The notes beneath the pieces were generated by a model, which did not search any database, was not told where the DNA came from, and was given only the letters and a program-made list of their open reading frames with translations. Of a stretch of DNA of 64,000 bases, positions 4,707 to 54,690 are shown piece by piece (the stretch's first letter is position 1; every line of letters starts with the position of its first letter). A program made the translations under genes and the position numbers. Origin of the DNA: an uncultured Phascolarctobacterium sp. (lineage in GTDB: Bacteria; Bacillota; Negativicutes; Acidaminococcales; Acidaminococcaceae). The stretch spans positions 124,001 to 188,000 of the forward strand of contig CASDXO010000002.1 in assembly GCA_949285135.1 (NCBI GenBank), read 5' to 3'.

Positions 4707-6203
4707 CTATTTATCAAATTTTTCGGGGAAGAAAATTTCCAGTGTCTGGCGGTCTGCAGACTTGCCAAAATGATTGCCGATAAAGAACAGCAGCAAGGAA
4801 AAGAAGATACCAAGTACGATTTGATGCAGGTCAAAGAATTTTATCTTCAAGGCCATGGTTACGCAGTAAACAATGACGCCGCCAACCATGGCTGCCAAAG
4901 CACCGTTTTTATTGGCATGCGGCCAGAACAGACCGAAGATAAGTACCCAGAAGAAGGCTGTTTCCAGTCCACCGAAAGCAAACATATTAATCTGCCAGAT
5001 GACGCTGGGCGGGGAAATGGCTATAAAATATACTGCAAGCCCAAGAATTATTGTGGTTGCCAGGCTGAAAGTGCGTATTTTACTGTTTAACGGCGCAAGC
5101 CCGCGTTTGCCCAGTTCATGCATATAGATATCCTTAATGATGGAAGAGGAAGATGCAAGAAGCAGGGAAGAAACAGTGGAAATTGTTGCTGCAATAGGGC
5201 CGATAATAGTAACGCCTGCCCAGAAAGGACCCATGCTTTTGACAATGGTCAGAGGCGTAATATTATCGACGCTGTTGCCATAAGCCGCCAGTGAATCTGT
5301 CAGAATGCCTTTGCTGAGTACGCCGATCCAGGTAGCTACAAGGGTCATGGCACCGATAACGACAGTGCCGATAATCATGGCTCGGTGCAGGGCCTGTGTG
5401 TTTTTGTAGCTGATGCCACGTACAACTGATTGAGGCAGAGAAAGGGTACAGATGCCTACCAGCAGCCACTGACTGATATAGAGGGAAACCGGCATTTTAC
5501 CACGTGAAAGCGGTTCCAGCATGTCTGGATGGTTGGAGCCGATATAATTCATTATATTGTTAAAACCACCGCCGACGTCCATCATGGAACCCATTAGAAG
5601 GCAGAGACCGGCAATCATGGCGATAGCGCAGACAGAGTCAGTAACGGCTACACCCTTGAAGCCGCCGATAGTAGTGTAAAATACGACTATCAGTCCAAAA
5701 AGGCTGAGACCGGTAACATAGGAAAAGCCGGTTACTGCTTCAAATAATTTTGCCGCACCGACAAACTGTGCTACCATGGTAGCACAAAAGAAAGCAACTA
5801 TGACAAGGGCAGAAAAATTGGCCAGTAAATCGGAATGGTAACGGGCGCGGATAACGTCGATAACGGTGACAGCATCAATCCGGCGGGAAATAAGAGCGAT
5901 TTTTTTGCCAAAAACACCGAGTACGAGGAATATAACTACAACCTGAACTATTGCCATATAAAGCCAGCCATAGCCGATAACCCAAGCCATACCGGGGCCG
6001 CCGACAAAAGTGCTGACGCTGCTGTAGGTGGCAGCAGTGGTCATGGCCAGTACAAAGCCGCCCAGTGTTCTACCGCCGATAAAATAATCTTTGGCAAAAT
6101 TTTTGTTTCTGTCATCTTTTGAGGATTTCTGGATATAAACGCTGATGCCGAGCATGAAAATAAGAAAGACCATTACCGGCAGCAGATTAAAGATGCTATT
6201 CAT
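4707..6203 (-). CDS. panF: Sodium/pantothenate symporter PanF
   Basis: A 498-residue sodium:solute symporter (SSS family) with about 13 hydrophobic helices. The N-terminal pattern YFIGGRTLGGFVLAMTTAATYSS and the segment GGPGMAWVIGYGWLYMA match the pantothenate symporter branch. It imports vitamin B5 into the cytoplasm with sodium. The identification is strengthened by the yhdT gene directly upstream, a pairing also seen in enterobacteria. The two coding regions overlap by eight bases, and the ATG at 6203 lies inside the yhdT 3' end with GGAG upstream. Confidence 0.9.
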   Translation of the reverse strand: MNSIFNLLPVMVFLIFMLGISVYIQKSSKDDRNKNFAKDYFIGGRTLGGFVLAMTTAATYSSVSTFVGGPGMAWVIGYGWLYMAIVQVVVIFLVLGVFGKKIALISRRIDAVTVIDVIRARYHSDLLANFSALVIVAFFCATMVAQFVGAAKLFEAVTGFSYVTGLSLFGLIVVFYTTIGGFKGVAVTDSVCAIAMIAGLCLLMGSMMDVGGGFNNIMNYIGSNHPDMLEPLSRGKMPVSLYISQWLLVGICTLSLPQSVVRGISYKNTQALHRAMIIGTVVIGAMTLVATWIGVLSKGILTDSLAAYGNSVDNITPLTIVKSMGPFWAGVTIIGPIAATISTVSSLLLASSSSIIKDIYMHELGKRGLAPLNSKIRTFSLATTIILGLAVYFIAISPPSVIWQINMFAFGGLETAFFWVLIFGLFWPHANKNGALAAMVGGVIVYCVTMALKIKFFDLHQIVLGIFFSLLLFFIGNHFGKSADRQTLEIFFPEKFDK

Positions 6204-28813: not shown

Positions 28814-28842
28814 TTGACAGAAAATAAGAGCGTTGTTATACT
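28814..28842 (+). promoter_or_regulatory. Predicted sigma-A promoter of the T-box/lyase/TRAP unit
   Basis: TTGACA (28814-28819) and TATACT (28837-28842) with 17-base spacing. Bases 28716-28813 upstream are AT-rich and show no gene or clear terminator. Confidence 0.82.
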
Positions 28843-28848
28843 ATGTTT

Positions 28849-29095
28849 AATTTTTAAGAAAATCTTGAAAACTGTAAACATGTATAAGCGATGAACGGAA
28901 ATAAGGCAGTAACACATTTTAGAGATTTGGCGGGTGGTGCAAGCCAAAAAGCTGAAGCTGTCTTTCTCATCCGTGAGCTCTTTTTCTGAAAGTCATTAGG
29001 AAAAAGCGTACTGCTGCGTTAAAGTACAGAGTATAATATAGGGTGGTACCGCGTATTACGCCCCTATCGGTTTATGCCGATAGGGGCTTTTTTTA
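28849..29095 (+). promoter_or_regulatory. T-box leader, probable Leu (CUC) specifier, upstream of lyase-TRAP genes
   Basis: The leader contains the stem I apical element AGAGATTTGGC...GGTGGTGCAAGCC (28921-28945), the T-box AGGGTGGTACCGCG (29040-29053), and a terminator with GCCCCTATCGG/CCGATAGGGGC and seven T (29060-29095). I paired GGCAG with CTGTC and ACGGA with TCCGT; the 3' side of the loop left between them is TTTCTCA, so the specifier is best read as CTC (Leu) followed by the usual A. TCA (Ser) is the alternative if the lower stem is one pair shorter. Uncharged tRNA should favour the antiterminator and turn on the genes below. Confidence 0.88.
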
Positions 29096-29114
29096 TTAAA
29101 CTGGAGGGGTGTTG

Positions 29115-29978
29115 ATGGATGTACGTAAAAATCTGCGGGAAAGACTGCAGAAGAAAGATATACTGGTTCTTCCGGGCGTTTATGATGCACTGACAGCAAA
29201 AATTGCAGCAGCGGCAGGCTTTGAAGGATTGGTAATGGGTGGTTACGGTGTAGCTGCCAGCAGACTTGGCGAACCGGATGTAGGTTATCTTTCGATGACA
29301 GAAATGGCCGATGCACTGAGGACAATTACAAGAGCAGCACAACTGCCGGTATTTGCTGATGGTGATACGGGATATGGCAACAATCTGAGTGCCATGAGAA
29401 CTATGCGGGAGTATGAAGCTGCCGGAGCTGCTGCAGTCCTTTTTGAAGATCAGGTGTGGCCGAAACGTTGTGGACATATGCAGGGCAAGCAGGTGATTGA
29501 TGCCAAAGAGCATGCCAAAAAGCTGCGTGCAGCAGCAGATGCTAAAACTTTTGCAGATACGCTGCTGATTGCAAGGACCGATGCCAGAGCGGTATTGGGT
29601 TTGGAGGCTGCTATCGAGCGAGGTAAGCTTTATCTTGACAGTGGTGCGGATGCGCTTTTTATTGAAGCACCGCAGAATATTAAAGAAATGGAAACTATCT
29701 GTCGTAGTTTTCCTGATACTGTTTTGATTGCCAATATGATAGAAGGAGGCAGGACGCCGAATCTGACTGATGCGGAGTTACAGGAACTGGGTTTCAGAAT
29801 CGTTTTCTGGCCCTGTGCATCTGTATATACAGTTGCCAAAGCCTTTGGGACGGTAATGCGACAGCTGCGTGAGCATGGTACTACTGCAGGCAGTGGGCAG
29901 GAGATGCTCAGCTTTGAAGAATTTAATGAATTTATTGGGCTCAGAAAATACAATGAGCTTGATCAAAAATACAAATAA
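29115..29978 (+). CDS. Isocitrate lyase/PEP mutase family protein (methylisocitrate or dimethylmalate lyase-like)
   Basis: A 287-residue TIM-barrel enzyme. The metal-binding DGDTGYGN segment near residue 80 and EDQVWPKRCGHM with the catalytic Cys at about 119 place it with C-C bond lyases such as PrpB (2-methylisocitrate lyase) and 2,3-dimethylmalate lyase, rather than with PEP mutase. The substrate is not determined. ATG 29115 has GGAGG seven bases upstream. It lies between a T-box and TRAP genes, which suggests that it cleaves a carboxylate imported by the transporter, with a product feeding amino-acid synthesis. Confidence 0.85.
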   Translation: MDVRKNLRERLQKKDILVLPGVYDALTAKIAAAAGFEGLVMGGYGVAASRLGEPDVGYLSMTEMADALRTITRAAQLPVFADGDTGYGNNLSAMRTMREYEAAGAAAVLFEDQVWPKRCGHMQGKQVIDAKEHAKKLRAAADAKTFADTLLIARTDARAVLGLEAAIERGKLYLDSGADALFIEAPQNIKEMETICRSFPDTVLIANMIEGGRTPNLTDAELQELGFRIVFWPCASVYTVAKAFGTVMRQLREHGTTAGSGQEMLSFEEFNEFIGLRKYNELDQKYK

Positions 29979-30007
29979 AATTTTATATTAAAGGGGAGTG
30001 TTGTATT

Positions 30008-31024
30008 ATGAAATGGATGAAAAAAATGACAGCGGCGGCTTTGATTGCCGCAATGGCTCTGGTTGGCGGTTGTGGCGGCAGCGACAACAAAAAAGCTGCT
30101 GATGGCGGTACTGTGGAACTTAAAATGGCAACGGCTCTGCCAGCAAGCCATCCGCTGGTAAAAGCCATGGATAGTTTGAAAGAAAAGGCTGCTGCTAAGT
30201 CAGGCGGAACTGTTAAGATTGCCATTTACCCTGCCGGGCAGCTGTATAATGATAAAAATATGAATGATGCCATTATGTCCGGCGGTATTGATATGGGCCT
30301 GAATACCGTAGGCAGATGGGCAAGCATCATACCTGCGATGGACGTTTTTGATGTACCATTCCTGTTCCCGGATTATGAAAAGGTTGACCATGCCATTGAT
30401 GGCGGCCTGGGCGACAAGCTTGGCAGTGAACTGCAGAAAAAAGGCGTACGTCCTTTGATTTGGGCAGATTATGGTTTTGTACAGTTTGCCAATAATAAAA
30501 AGGAAATTAAATCGCCGGCTGATTTTGCCGGACTGAAGATGCGTGGTTACAGCAAATATTCTGCTGAAACTATCAAAGCACTGGGTGCTTCTTCTGTAAC
30601 TATGGGTGCAAGCGAAGTTTATATGGGTATCCAGCGCGGTACAATTGACGGACAGAGCTCCGGTACACCGGCAATGCGTGACCGCAAGATGTACGAAGTT
30701 CATGAATATCTGACCATTACCAATCATGCTTCTCCGGAATTTATTGTTGCTATTAACGAAAAATCTTATAACAAACTGAGCGACAGCCAGAAAAAAGCTT
30801 TGAATGAAGCTGCACTGGAAGTACGTAATGATATCAGAGCCAATGCCAAGAAAGAAGATTTGCAGGCATTAGAAGATCTGAAAGCCAAAGGCATGAAGGT
30901 ATACGTTGTTCCTGAAAGTGAATTGCAGGCATGGCGCGATGCAACTGCTCCGGTTTGGAATGTATTTGTTAAAGAAAATGGTAAACTCGGTCAGGAATTG
31001 ATTGATATCTGCACTAAATCCTGA
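30008..31024 (+). CDS. dctP: TRAP transporter substrate-binding protein DctP
   Basis: A 338-residue extracytoplasmic solute receptor. It has a lipoprotein signal peptide ending LVGGC with lipidated Cys22, so it should be anchored at the outer face of the membrane. The sequence KMATALPASHPLVKAMDSLKEKAAAKSGG starts the mature domain, and MRGYSKYSAETIKALGAS contains the conserved Arg that normally binds a carboxylate. GDNSNGQ-like APxV features are replaced by family-typical IQRGTIDGQSSG. GGGGAG precedes the start. Ligand: an organic acid, unidentified. Confidence 0.92.
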   Translation: MKWMKKMTAAALIAAMALVGGCGGSDNKKAADGGTVELKMATALPASHPLVKAMDSLKEKAAAKSGGTVKIAIYPAGQLYNDKNMNDAIMSGGIDMGLNTVGRWASIIPAMDVFDVPFLFPDYEKVDHAIDGGLGDKLGSELQKKGVRPLIWADYGFVQFANNKKEIKSPADFAGLKMRGYSKYSAETIKALGASSVTMGASEVYMGIQRGTIDGQSSGTPAMRDRKMYEVHEYLTITNHASPEFIVAINEKSYNKLSDSQKKALNEAALEVRNDIRANAKKEDLQALEDLKAKGMKVYVVPESELQAWRDATAPVWNVFVKENGKLGQELIDICTKS

Positions 31025-31056
31025 TTGTTGCTGCAGACAAAAGTGAGAGTGATACA

Positions 31057-31581
31057 GTGGAAAGATTTATTGGAATATATGACAGAATATTACATGTGAT
31101 AACCAAGGCTGCCGGTATTATTGCGGGTTTGCTGGTACTGTTTACCGGATTTATGATTGTCTATGAGGTAATCTGTCGTGGAGCCTTTAACGCACCGACA
31201 GAATGGGTAATGGAAATCTCGACCTATTGTGTGGTTGTGGCCGGATTTCTTGGTATGGGTGTGGCATATGCGGGCAAAAAACATATCCATGTAGATATAG
31301 TTATGTCCAAACTGTCGCCTAAAGTACGCTGCTATGTGGAGATTTTTACAGGCATTATCGGTCTCTTTTACAGCTTTATCTTTATGCAGCAGGCCTGGGA
31401 AATGACGATGTTTTCTCTGGAGATTAATAACTGTGCGCCTACGACCCTGAGTACGCCGTTGTGGATACCTCAGATGGCCATGCCTGTTGGTATGCTGGTG
31501 CTGCTTTTACAGATTATCCGCACGCTGCTGGTGGATTTCGTAAAAATTAAGAACAATGATTTCAGTGAGGAGGTAAAATAA
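31057..31581 (+). CDS. dctQ: TRAP transporter small permease DctQ
   Basis: A 174-residue membrane protein with four hydrophobic helices (about 20-40, 50-68, 90-112, 130-150) and the conserved segment FNAPTEWVMEISTYCVVVAGFLGMGVAYA. It forms the membrane complex with DctM. The start is GTG at 31057 with only a weak GAGAG upstream. It is followed immediately by dctM with no gap, which suggests coupled translation and fixed stoichiometry. Confidence 0.9.
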   Translation: MERFIGIYDRILHVITKAAGIIAGLLVLFTGFMIVYEVICRGAFNAPTEWVMEISTYCVVVAGFLGMGVAYAGKKHIHVDIVMSKLSPKVRCYVEIFTGIIGLFYSFIFMQQAWEMTMFSLEINNCAPTTLSTPLWIPQMAMPVGMLVLLLQIIRTLLVDFVKIKNNDFSEEVK

Positions 31582-32859
31582 ATGATATTAGGATTTACCG
31601 CTTTGCTGTTATTGTTGCTGGTTATGGGTCTGCCGGTGGCCTTTTCACTGGGCATGGCTGGCGTTGCCGGTATGCTGCTCTTTATGGGTGGCGATGGTGC
31701 GCTGGCACAGCTGCCTATTATCGGCTATAAATCACTGGATGATTTTGTCCTGACGGCAGTACCTTTGTATATTTTAATGAGCCAGATACTGCTGACAGGT
31801 AAGGTAGGCAATGATTTATTCGAGCTGGCAAATAAATGGCTGCGTCATCTTCCGGGTGGTCTTGGCATTGCTACTGTTATGGCATGTGCTGTTTTTGCGG
31901 CTATTACCGGTTCTTCGGTAGCCTGCGCTGTTACCATCGGTGCTATCGCTATTCCTGAAATGCTTTCCCGTGGTTATGAACGCTCGCTGGTTTTAGGTGC
32001 TGTGGCTGCCGGAGGTACGCTTGGTATACTTATTCCGCCGTCCATCCCCATGATTCTTTACGGCGCAATAACTGATGAATCTATTGGCAAGCTGTTTATG
32101 TCCGGTGTGGTTCCCGGAGCAATCCTTACAGTAATGTTCATCATGATTGTTGTGTATAAGTCAAGAAATCTGCCTCTGGAAGCTGCTGCCAGCTGGGAGG
32201 AGCGTATCAGTGCATTGAAAAAGTCCTTCTGGGGACTGATGCTGCCGGTTATTGTTGTTGGTGGTATTTATACGGGCATTTTTACACCGACTGAGGCTGC
32301 CGGCATAGGTACGGTTTACAGTCTGATAATAACTTTCTTTATCTACCGGACTCTTTCCCTGAAAGATATGCCGGATATTTTGGAAGATACTATTAAGACT
32401 ACGTGCATGATTTTTGCCATTATGATTGGCGCCAGCCTGTTCGGTTTTGTGCTCACCATTTTGGATGCACCGCAGGCGCTGACTAATTTTGTTGTGGATA
32501 TGCAGACTAATCGCTGGGTAATCTTTGTTGCCATCAATATTTTGCTGCTGTTTTTGGGCTGCATACTCGAATCTGTTTCCATTATCTTTATCACACTGCC
32601 GATACTGTTCCCGTTAATTATGCGGCTTGGCTTTGATCCCATCTGGTTCAATGTTGTAATGCTTATTAATCTGGAACTGGCATTGATTACGCCGCCTGTC
32701 GGCATGAATCTCTTTGTATTGCAGGGCATCAGTCCGGACAGTAAGATGACGCAGATTATTAAAGGCGTTATTCCCTTTGGCATCGTTATGGCACTGGAAA
32801 TCTTGTTGCTGTGCTTCTTCCCGCAGATTGCGACCTGGCTGCCCAATGTTGTTAAATAA
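31582..32859 (+). CDS. dctM: TRAP transporter large permease DctM
   Basis: A 425-residue permease with about 12 hydrophobic helices. It carries the TRAP signatures GLPVAFSLGMAGVAGM, FAAITGSSVACAVTIGAIAIPEM, GTLGILIPPSIPMILYGAITDESIGKLFMSG and FTPTEAAGIG. It uses the sodium gradient to move the substrate delivered by DctP. GAGGAGG lies at the dctQ end. It is the last gene of the T-box unit. Confidence 0.95.
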   Translation: MILGFTALLLLLLVMGLPVAFSLGMAGVAGMLLFMGGDGALAQLPIIGYKSLDDFVLTAVPLYILMSQILLTGKVGNDLFELANKWLRHLPGGLGIATVMACAVFAAITGSSVACAVTIGAIAIPEMLSRGYERSLVLGAVAAGGTLGILIPPSIPMILYGAITDESIGKLFMSGVVPGAILTVMFIMIVVYKSRNLPLEAAASWEERISALKKSFWGLMLPVIVVGGIYTGIFTPTEAAGIGTVYSLIITFFIYRTLSLKDMPDILEDTIKTTCMIFAIMIGASLFGFVLTILDAPQALTNFVVDMQTNRWVIFVAINILLLFLGCILESVSIIFITLPILFPLIMRLGFDPIWFNVVMLINLELALITPPVGMNLFVLQGISPDSKMTQIIKGVIPFGIVMALEILLLCFFPQIATWLPNVVK

Positions 32860-41302: not shown

Positions 41303-41556
41303 CAAAAAATAAATCCCCTGCCTGCAGATGCAGACAGGGGCGATGATAAACCGCGGTACCACCCTTATTTAGATACTCATTCTGCGCATAACGCCGCTGC
41401 AGCGTCGAACCTTACTGATAGTTCAGGAACGCGGCTCCGGGACTACAACCGTACGCAATCGGAACGGCTTGCACCAACCGCCGCTTCTCTTACCGACTTA
41501 ACGCAAAGTCCTTCCGTTCTTTGCCTTTACAGTATTTGCTTTTAGAAAAAGTTATT
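41303..41556 (-). promoter_or_regulatory. T-box leader of ilvN-ilvB
   Basis: Reading the minus strand: stem I apical element GGTTGGTGCAAGCC (about 41465-41478), the T-box AGGGTGGTACCGCGG (about 41350-41364) and a terminator CCCCTGTCTGC/GCAGGCAGGGG with a T-rich tail (41303-41340). I could not fix the specifier; an ATC (Ile) followed by A occurs near 41420, but stem I pairing in that area is ambiguous. Control by branched-chain aminoacyl-tRNA is expected for this operon. Confidence 0.88.
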
Positions 41557-54401: not shown

Positions 54402-54690
54402 ATTTAAAAAAGCAAACCGTTGAAGCGGAGATAACGGCTAATATGCCTTTACAGAGAGCCTGCGCTGCTGAGAGTCAGGTAAGAAACAGTTTGTCAAATG
54501 GACCGCTGAGGGTGCAGTCAAATGCGCGTGAGCGCAGAGTATTCTGCAACGTGTGGGCATACGTTAGTTGCCGGGGATATGTTGGTATCCTGACAAGTGT
54601 ACGGCGTCGTAGTCGTAAAGCAAGGTGGCACCGCGGATAAAGTTTATTCGTCCTTGACAGAAGAAAGATTTCTGTCAGGGACTTTTTTAT
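54402..54690 (+). promoter_or_regulatory. T-box leader of the trp operon, specifier TGG (Trp)
   Basis: Stem I starts with GAAGCGGAGA; the specifier TGG at 54499-54501 is followed by A and then by CCGC, which pairs with GCGG on the 5' side. The T-box AAGGTGGCACCGCGG is at 54622-54636. The terminator GTCCTTGACAGAA/TTTCTGTCAGGGAC with six or more T lies at 54650-54690. Uncharged tRNA-Trp would allow read-through into trpE. Confidence 0.93.

Follow-up and report, generated by a model that had tools for sequence, protein, structure and literature searches.

The TRAP transporter family is known mainly for organic acids. SiaP, 4p47, 4pdh, 4p9k/4pak, 4p8b and 7bbr have the fold, the P-Q-M gene set and Arg179 in common with the TRAP system studied here. 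The Leu T-boxes of the Bacillus subtilis ilv-leu operon and yvbW permease have the same RNA architecture and CUC specifier as the leader of this system; the CUC result is credited to Marta 1996, as cited in PMC2494555. Leu T-boxes 5' of transporters are known for the APC and NSS families, and the T-box transporter families tabulated in the same survey are ABC, APC, DAACS, LIVCS, MFS, NHAC and NSS, with no TRAP among them (PMC2494555).

In the present study, we analysed a stretch of 64,000 nucleotides from an uncultured Phascolarctobacterium sp. (the window), which carries a Leu T-box 5' of a C-C lyase gene and dctPQM. The difference from the B. subtilis type lies in the target, which here is a TRAP system, accompanied by a lyase in some loci. 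On balance, we consider it probable that, when leucine is short, the Leu T-box switches on a TRAP importer whose substrate is leucine or a leucine-related carboxylate.

A complete Leu T-box precedes the lyase-dctPQM operon

The complete T-box leader spans positions 28814-29096, with the following elements:

28814-28842, + strand: sigma-70-type promoter, TTGACA - 17 nt - TATACT (consensus scan, 11/12 matches)
28882-29068, + strand: T-box leader RNA (RF00230), stem I to T-box/antiterminator (cmscan, 101.6 bits, E 2.9e-21)
28966-28968, + strand: specifier codon CUC (Leu) in the stem I internal loop (covariance-model alignment, fold)
29044-29047, + strand: UGGU bulge of the T-box, pairing with ACCA of tRNA-Leu(GAG) (leader and tRNA gene sequences)
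29060-29096, + strand: intrinsic terminator of the leader, 12 pairs, T7 run (fold)

The Rfam covariance match lay above the RF00230 gathering score of 93 bits; among the orthologous leaders, several exceeded this score and the rest gave 57-92 bits. The terminator had a z of -6.1, and an equally good fold was obtained in 0 of 200 shuffles. These results bore out the sequence-only reading, which had described a full T-box of promoter, stem I, T-box and terminator before a lyase and dctPQM and had favoured CUC as its specifier.

The CUC triplet lies directly 5' of the lower helix, within the internal loop. We calibrated this assignment on 13 other full T-boxes of the same genome, with gene names taken from translations. 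The T-boxes of leuS, leuA and leuCD all had CUC as the specifier, and the others followed their genes: AUC for ileS, GUA for valS, UUC for pheS, ACC for thrS, GGC for glyQS, UGG for trpE and UCC for serC. The two ilvNB T-boxes had AUC and GUA, respectively, and AUG was found before an O-acetylhomoserine-sulfhydrylase-like gene. The genome also encodes the matching tRNA-Leu(GAG), whose gene end, A73-CCA, is complementary to the leader UGGU.

Other RNA elements were recorded alongside. The Val T-box (GUA) 5' of an ilvN-ilvB-like acetolactate synthase pair lies in the window at 41333-41530 (- strand), and the ilvNB pair outside that locus has the Ile (AUC) T-box. The window also holds a Trp T-box (UGG) 5' of a trp operon (54411-54658, + strand) and a ZMP/ZTP riboswitch (940-1021, - strand, 57.2 bits). 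Two T-box cores stand in tandem 5' of serC-serA (L013 and L015; G000:C11:63224-63498, - strand), and the second (28.8 bits) is no more than an antiterminator-like fragment. G014 has a comparable fragment 3' of a T-box (C111:2286-2319). GCC (Ala) T-boxes 5' of an AsnC/Lrp-like regulator and an aminotransferase were found in Sporomusa ovata and a related genome (L029, 12643-12852, - strand; L031, 6647-6854, - strand).

The Leu specifier is conserved in orthologous leaders

We compared 36 leaders 5' of the dctPQM-type TRAP family, the window's included (35 plus one from another family, L258). The specifier was CUC in 34 and CUG in 2, so that a branched-chain specifier, Leu, was read in 36/36. The CUG leaders (L216 and L217) belong to a related genome pair; this synonymous switch is the kind of change that selection for leucine would allow. 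By comparison across these leaders, regulation by leucine appears well supported.

The T-box and lyase recurred together in 16 further loci, with dctP next wherever the contig was long enough; contig ends cut some loci in this survey. The T-box-lyase-dctPQM order was found in Phascolarctobacterium spp., including P. faecium DSM 14760, in Sporomusa ovata DSM 2662, and in one Peptococcaceae and one unclassified Bacillota genome. In a Sporomusaceae genome (L030), a single CUC T-box precedes leuA-leuC-leuD-leuB-lyase-dctPQM. The reading frames of lyase and dctP overlap in L029 and L030.

A T-box was not seen at every TRAP locus, which counts against the preferred reading. One genome (L024/L221) has a lyase-TRAP operon without it, and no T-box was detectable at L259 and L260, where the TRAP operon is present. 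In the L024 leader (5600-6010), a terminator-like hairpin is kept and the T-box is absent.

The transporter is the core of the operon

DctP homologues were found in 36 of the 59 family genomes by a DctP search. We read 20 loci, mostly picked for the absence of a neighbouring lyase, and 18 of them had a T-box directly 5' of dctPQM and no lyase; the remaining two were a contig end and L221. Genome-wide covariance searches confirmed the T-boxes at TRAP-only loci in G012, G013, G014 and G018. At L258, from another family of the same class, a CUC T-box lies before TRAP genes with no lyase between; it was missed by a pattern-only search and found by the covariance model. The lyase-free Leu T-box-dctPQM loci total 19, namely 18 from Acidaminococcaceae plus L258. 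At L205 and L211, the neighbours are those of the window, a metallo-beta-lactamase-fold gene upstream and a typA-like gene downstream.

A search for a close lyase homologue anywhere in the genome gave none in G012, G013, G014, G021, G033, G036 and G063. Together with the 19 lyase-free loci, this indicates that the transporter can fulfil its role without cleavage. In the DctP tree, lyase-bearing and lyase-free operons were interleaved, and at least three state changes were needed; gain or loss of the lyase thus happened repeatedly, and the Leu T-box persisted throughout. The lyase-free loci and the leuACDB-lyase-dctPQM order of L030 indicate that this leucine operon is built around the transporter, with the lyase added in some lineages.

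The biosynthetic genes were surveyed in the same genomes. We found leuA in nearly all carriers of the TRAP operon; the lyase-TRAP pair is therefore no substitute for the first step of leucine synthesis, and its replacing LeuA was rejected. TIGR00973 gave weak hits only as a LeuA model, because LeuA here is of the TIGR00970 type. Three genomes of one genus lacked leuA, leuB and leuC and also the TRAP genes. This joint loss is unexpected if leucine itself is imported; the genomes are small and related. G018 was considered as a leucine auxotroph keeping the TRAP genes and was rejected: its leuC lies at a contig end, and the missing leuB and leuA may be assembly gaps.

The lyase belongs to the petal-death-protein side of its superfamily

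The window operon contains four genes, all on the + strand and with short gaps:

29115-29978, + strand: C-C lyase of the ICL/PEP-mutase superfamily, petal-death-protein/2-alkylmalate side, 287 aa (PF13714, 160 bits)
30008-31024, + strand: dctP, TRAP solute-binding lipoprotein (NF037995, TIGR00787, PF03480)
31057-31581, + strand: dctQ, TRAP small permease, GTG start (PF04290, 96 bits)
31582-32859, + strand: dctM, TRAP large permease (TIGR00786, 412 bits; PF06808)

The TRAP subunits are adjacent, and their model scores exceeded the cut-offs (NF037995, 208 against 50 bits; TIGR00787, 202 against 175 bits; TIGR00786, 412 against 268 bits). Between dctM and the typA/bipA-like gene are a terminator-like hairpin and a promoter that matches the consensus perfectly.

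The lyase had been read as an isocitrate lyase/PrpB-type enzyme. The superfamily and fold stood, and the PrpB assignment did not. The AF2 model of the lyase (pLDDT 93.9) gave a Z of 38.1 to both the petal death protein (1zlp) and PrpB, and the catalytic residues are those of PrpB. The catalytic loop is KRCGH, and D82, D84, E111, K117, C119, R154 and N207 were invariant in 34 homologues; from the roles known in PrpB, we take the acidic, Arg and Asn positions to bind metal or substrate. In contrast, the TIGR02317 (prpB) score was 288 bits against a cut-off of 354 bits, 66 bits short, and the lyases of this operon formed one clade of 17 (support 99/98) on the opposite side of the tree from PrpB. 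Because of this score and this tree position, the lyase is not PrpB.

The closest solved sequence was 1zlp (254 bits), which has the catalytic CGH loop and the ANMIEGG segment in common with the lyase, whereas methylisocitrate lyases have EFG in place of EGG. The split between the petal-death-protein and PrpB sides was supported at 100/100; 1zlp is a long branch, and its place within its side is unsure. The fold is also that of 2,3-dimethylmalate lyase (3fa3). The window enzyme differs from 1zlp and 3fa3 in being a bacterial lyase encoded together with TRAP genes under a leucine T-box, and its substrate class is a prediction from sequence. Some relatives at about 50% identity stand beside LeuC-like dehydratase or GlmL-type mutase accessory genes, without a T-box, in neighbourhoods that presumably resemble the nicotinate-fermentation module, which includes 2,3-dimethylmalate lyase. 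The lyase is an accessory enzyme present in part of the lineages, and its probable substrates are acids of the 2-alkylmalate type with a link to the leucine pathway; its role may be the clean-up or the feeding of 2-alkylmalates.

The DctP receptor has lost a conserved arginine

The AF2 model of DctP (pLDDT 82.6) matched TRAP receptors at Z of about 29-34, with 33.9 to 4p47. A ligand could not be taken from this structure search, since the structural neighbours bind diverse ligands. In the alignment, Arg179 was conserved and position 158 was Val in 40/40 homologues, as opposed to Arg in L145 and five aligned PDB relatives. We take positions 158 and 179 to correspond to the two Arg of SiaP that hold the carboxylate region of the ligand. 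The second conserved Arg of the 4p47/4pdh/4p8b-type acid-binding DctPs is thus absent from the window DctP. Two further positions, invariant in 40 sequences, differ from these relatives: 218 is Ser, not Asn, and 244 is Glu, not Pro. The leucine T-box also sets this DctP apart. The loss of one Arg in the sequence would fit a partly hydrophobic ligand that carries only one carboxylate.

Proposed function and alternative explanations

In the proposed mechanism, leucine shortage would leave tRNA-Leu(GAG) uncharged. This tRNA would pair with the leader twice, through its anticodon with the CUC of stem I and through its ACCA end with the antiterminator UGGU. Formation of the terminator (29060-29096) would thereby be prevented, and lyase-dctPQM would be transcribed. 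The importer would be made alongside leucine biosynthesis and would bring in leucine or a leucine-related carboxylate. The regulon suggests scavenging by the importer, either of leucine or of something convertible to leucine; the most likely role is scavenging of a leucine-related carboxylate when leucine is short. Judged from the receptor and leader sequences, candidate DctP ligands are leucine, its 2-oxo or 2-hydroxy acid, and isopropylmalate. We give roughly one third of the weight to leucine or the branched-chain amino acids themselves, somewhat under half to an oxo- or hydroxy-acid of the leucine pathway, and the rest to something else. A bolder version, to which we give a low probability, would make this the first TRAP system assigned to a T-box regulon for an amino acid: a subfamily devoted to leucine or to an acid of the leucine pathway, accompanied by a lyase that splits isopropylmalate or other 2-alkylmalates and so edits the pathway or supplies it.

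Norvaline and norleucine can arise from acids such as citramalate and 2-ethylmalate. Under leucine starvation, derepressed LeuA would also make acids of this kind, and the lyase could be a clean-up enzyme that splits them back, with the TRAP system as a separate member of the regulon. We regard this as unlikely, even with the grouping of the lyase with the petal death protein, a broad 2-alkylmalate lyase, away from PrpB, with its specifier being that of leuA and with its place directly 3' of leuB in L030. The tight lyase-TRAP pairing would be left unexplained, and most TRAP-only genomes do without the lyase.

Slightly less probable still is the pathway of the sequence-only reading, in which the TRAP system imports an organic acid and the lyase turns it, by cleavage, into a precursor of leucine or the branched-chain amino acids; 2-isopropylmalate, for example, would give 2-oxoisovalerate and acetate. 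Its leucine part was strongly supported, with Leu in 36/36 leaders and the leuACDB fusion of L030. The lyase lies directly 5' of dctPQM in every lyase-bearing locus of the clade that is long enough, and the overlapping frames in L029 and L030 also agree with coupled import and cleavage. Its cleavage part fared worse: in 19 TRAP loci with a Leu T-box, no lyase gene separates the T-box from dctP, seven genomes have no close lyase at all, and LeuCDB would use imported isopropylmalate directly, making cleavage wasteful. Cleavage to a precursor is possible, and the regulon does not need it.

Ordinary dicarboxylate or propionate/methylisocitrate catabolism that lies behind a T-box by chance is very improbable, for although the top-scoring family models were prpB and dctP/dctM, the lyase falls below the TIGR02317 cut-off and apart from PrpB with full support, DctP is without the second Arg of its aligned relatives, and the Leu specifier is universal among the leaders.

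Significance of the Leu T-box-TRAP combination

The reading preferred here, a TRAP importer switched on by leucine shortage, joins two known parts. Leu T-boxes and TRAP systems are each known, and their combination would be what is new, although this is not proven: a text search of the open literature, with key older surveys beyond its reach, did not find a T-box combined with a TRAP transporter. The T-box ties a leucine shortage signal to genes that would be labelled "dicarboxylate transporter" and "methylisocitrate lyase" from their sequence, and narrows the search for the ligand to a handful of leucine-related compounds. This link may correct annotations across the Acidaminococcaceae. Import of leucine or isopropylmalate by the TRAP system, if it occurs, would give the TRAP family a part in amino-acid scavenging in gut bacteria.
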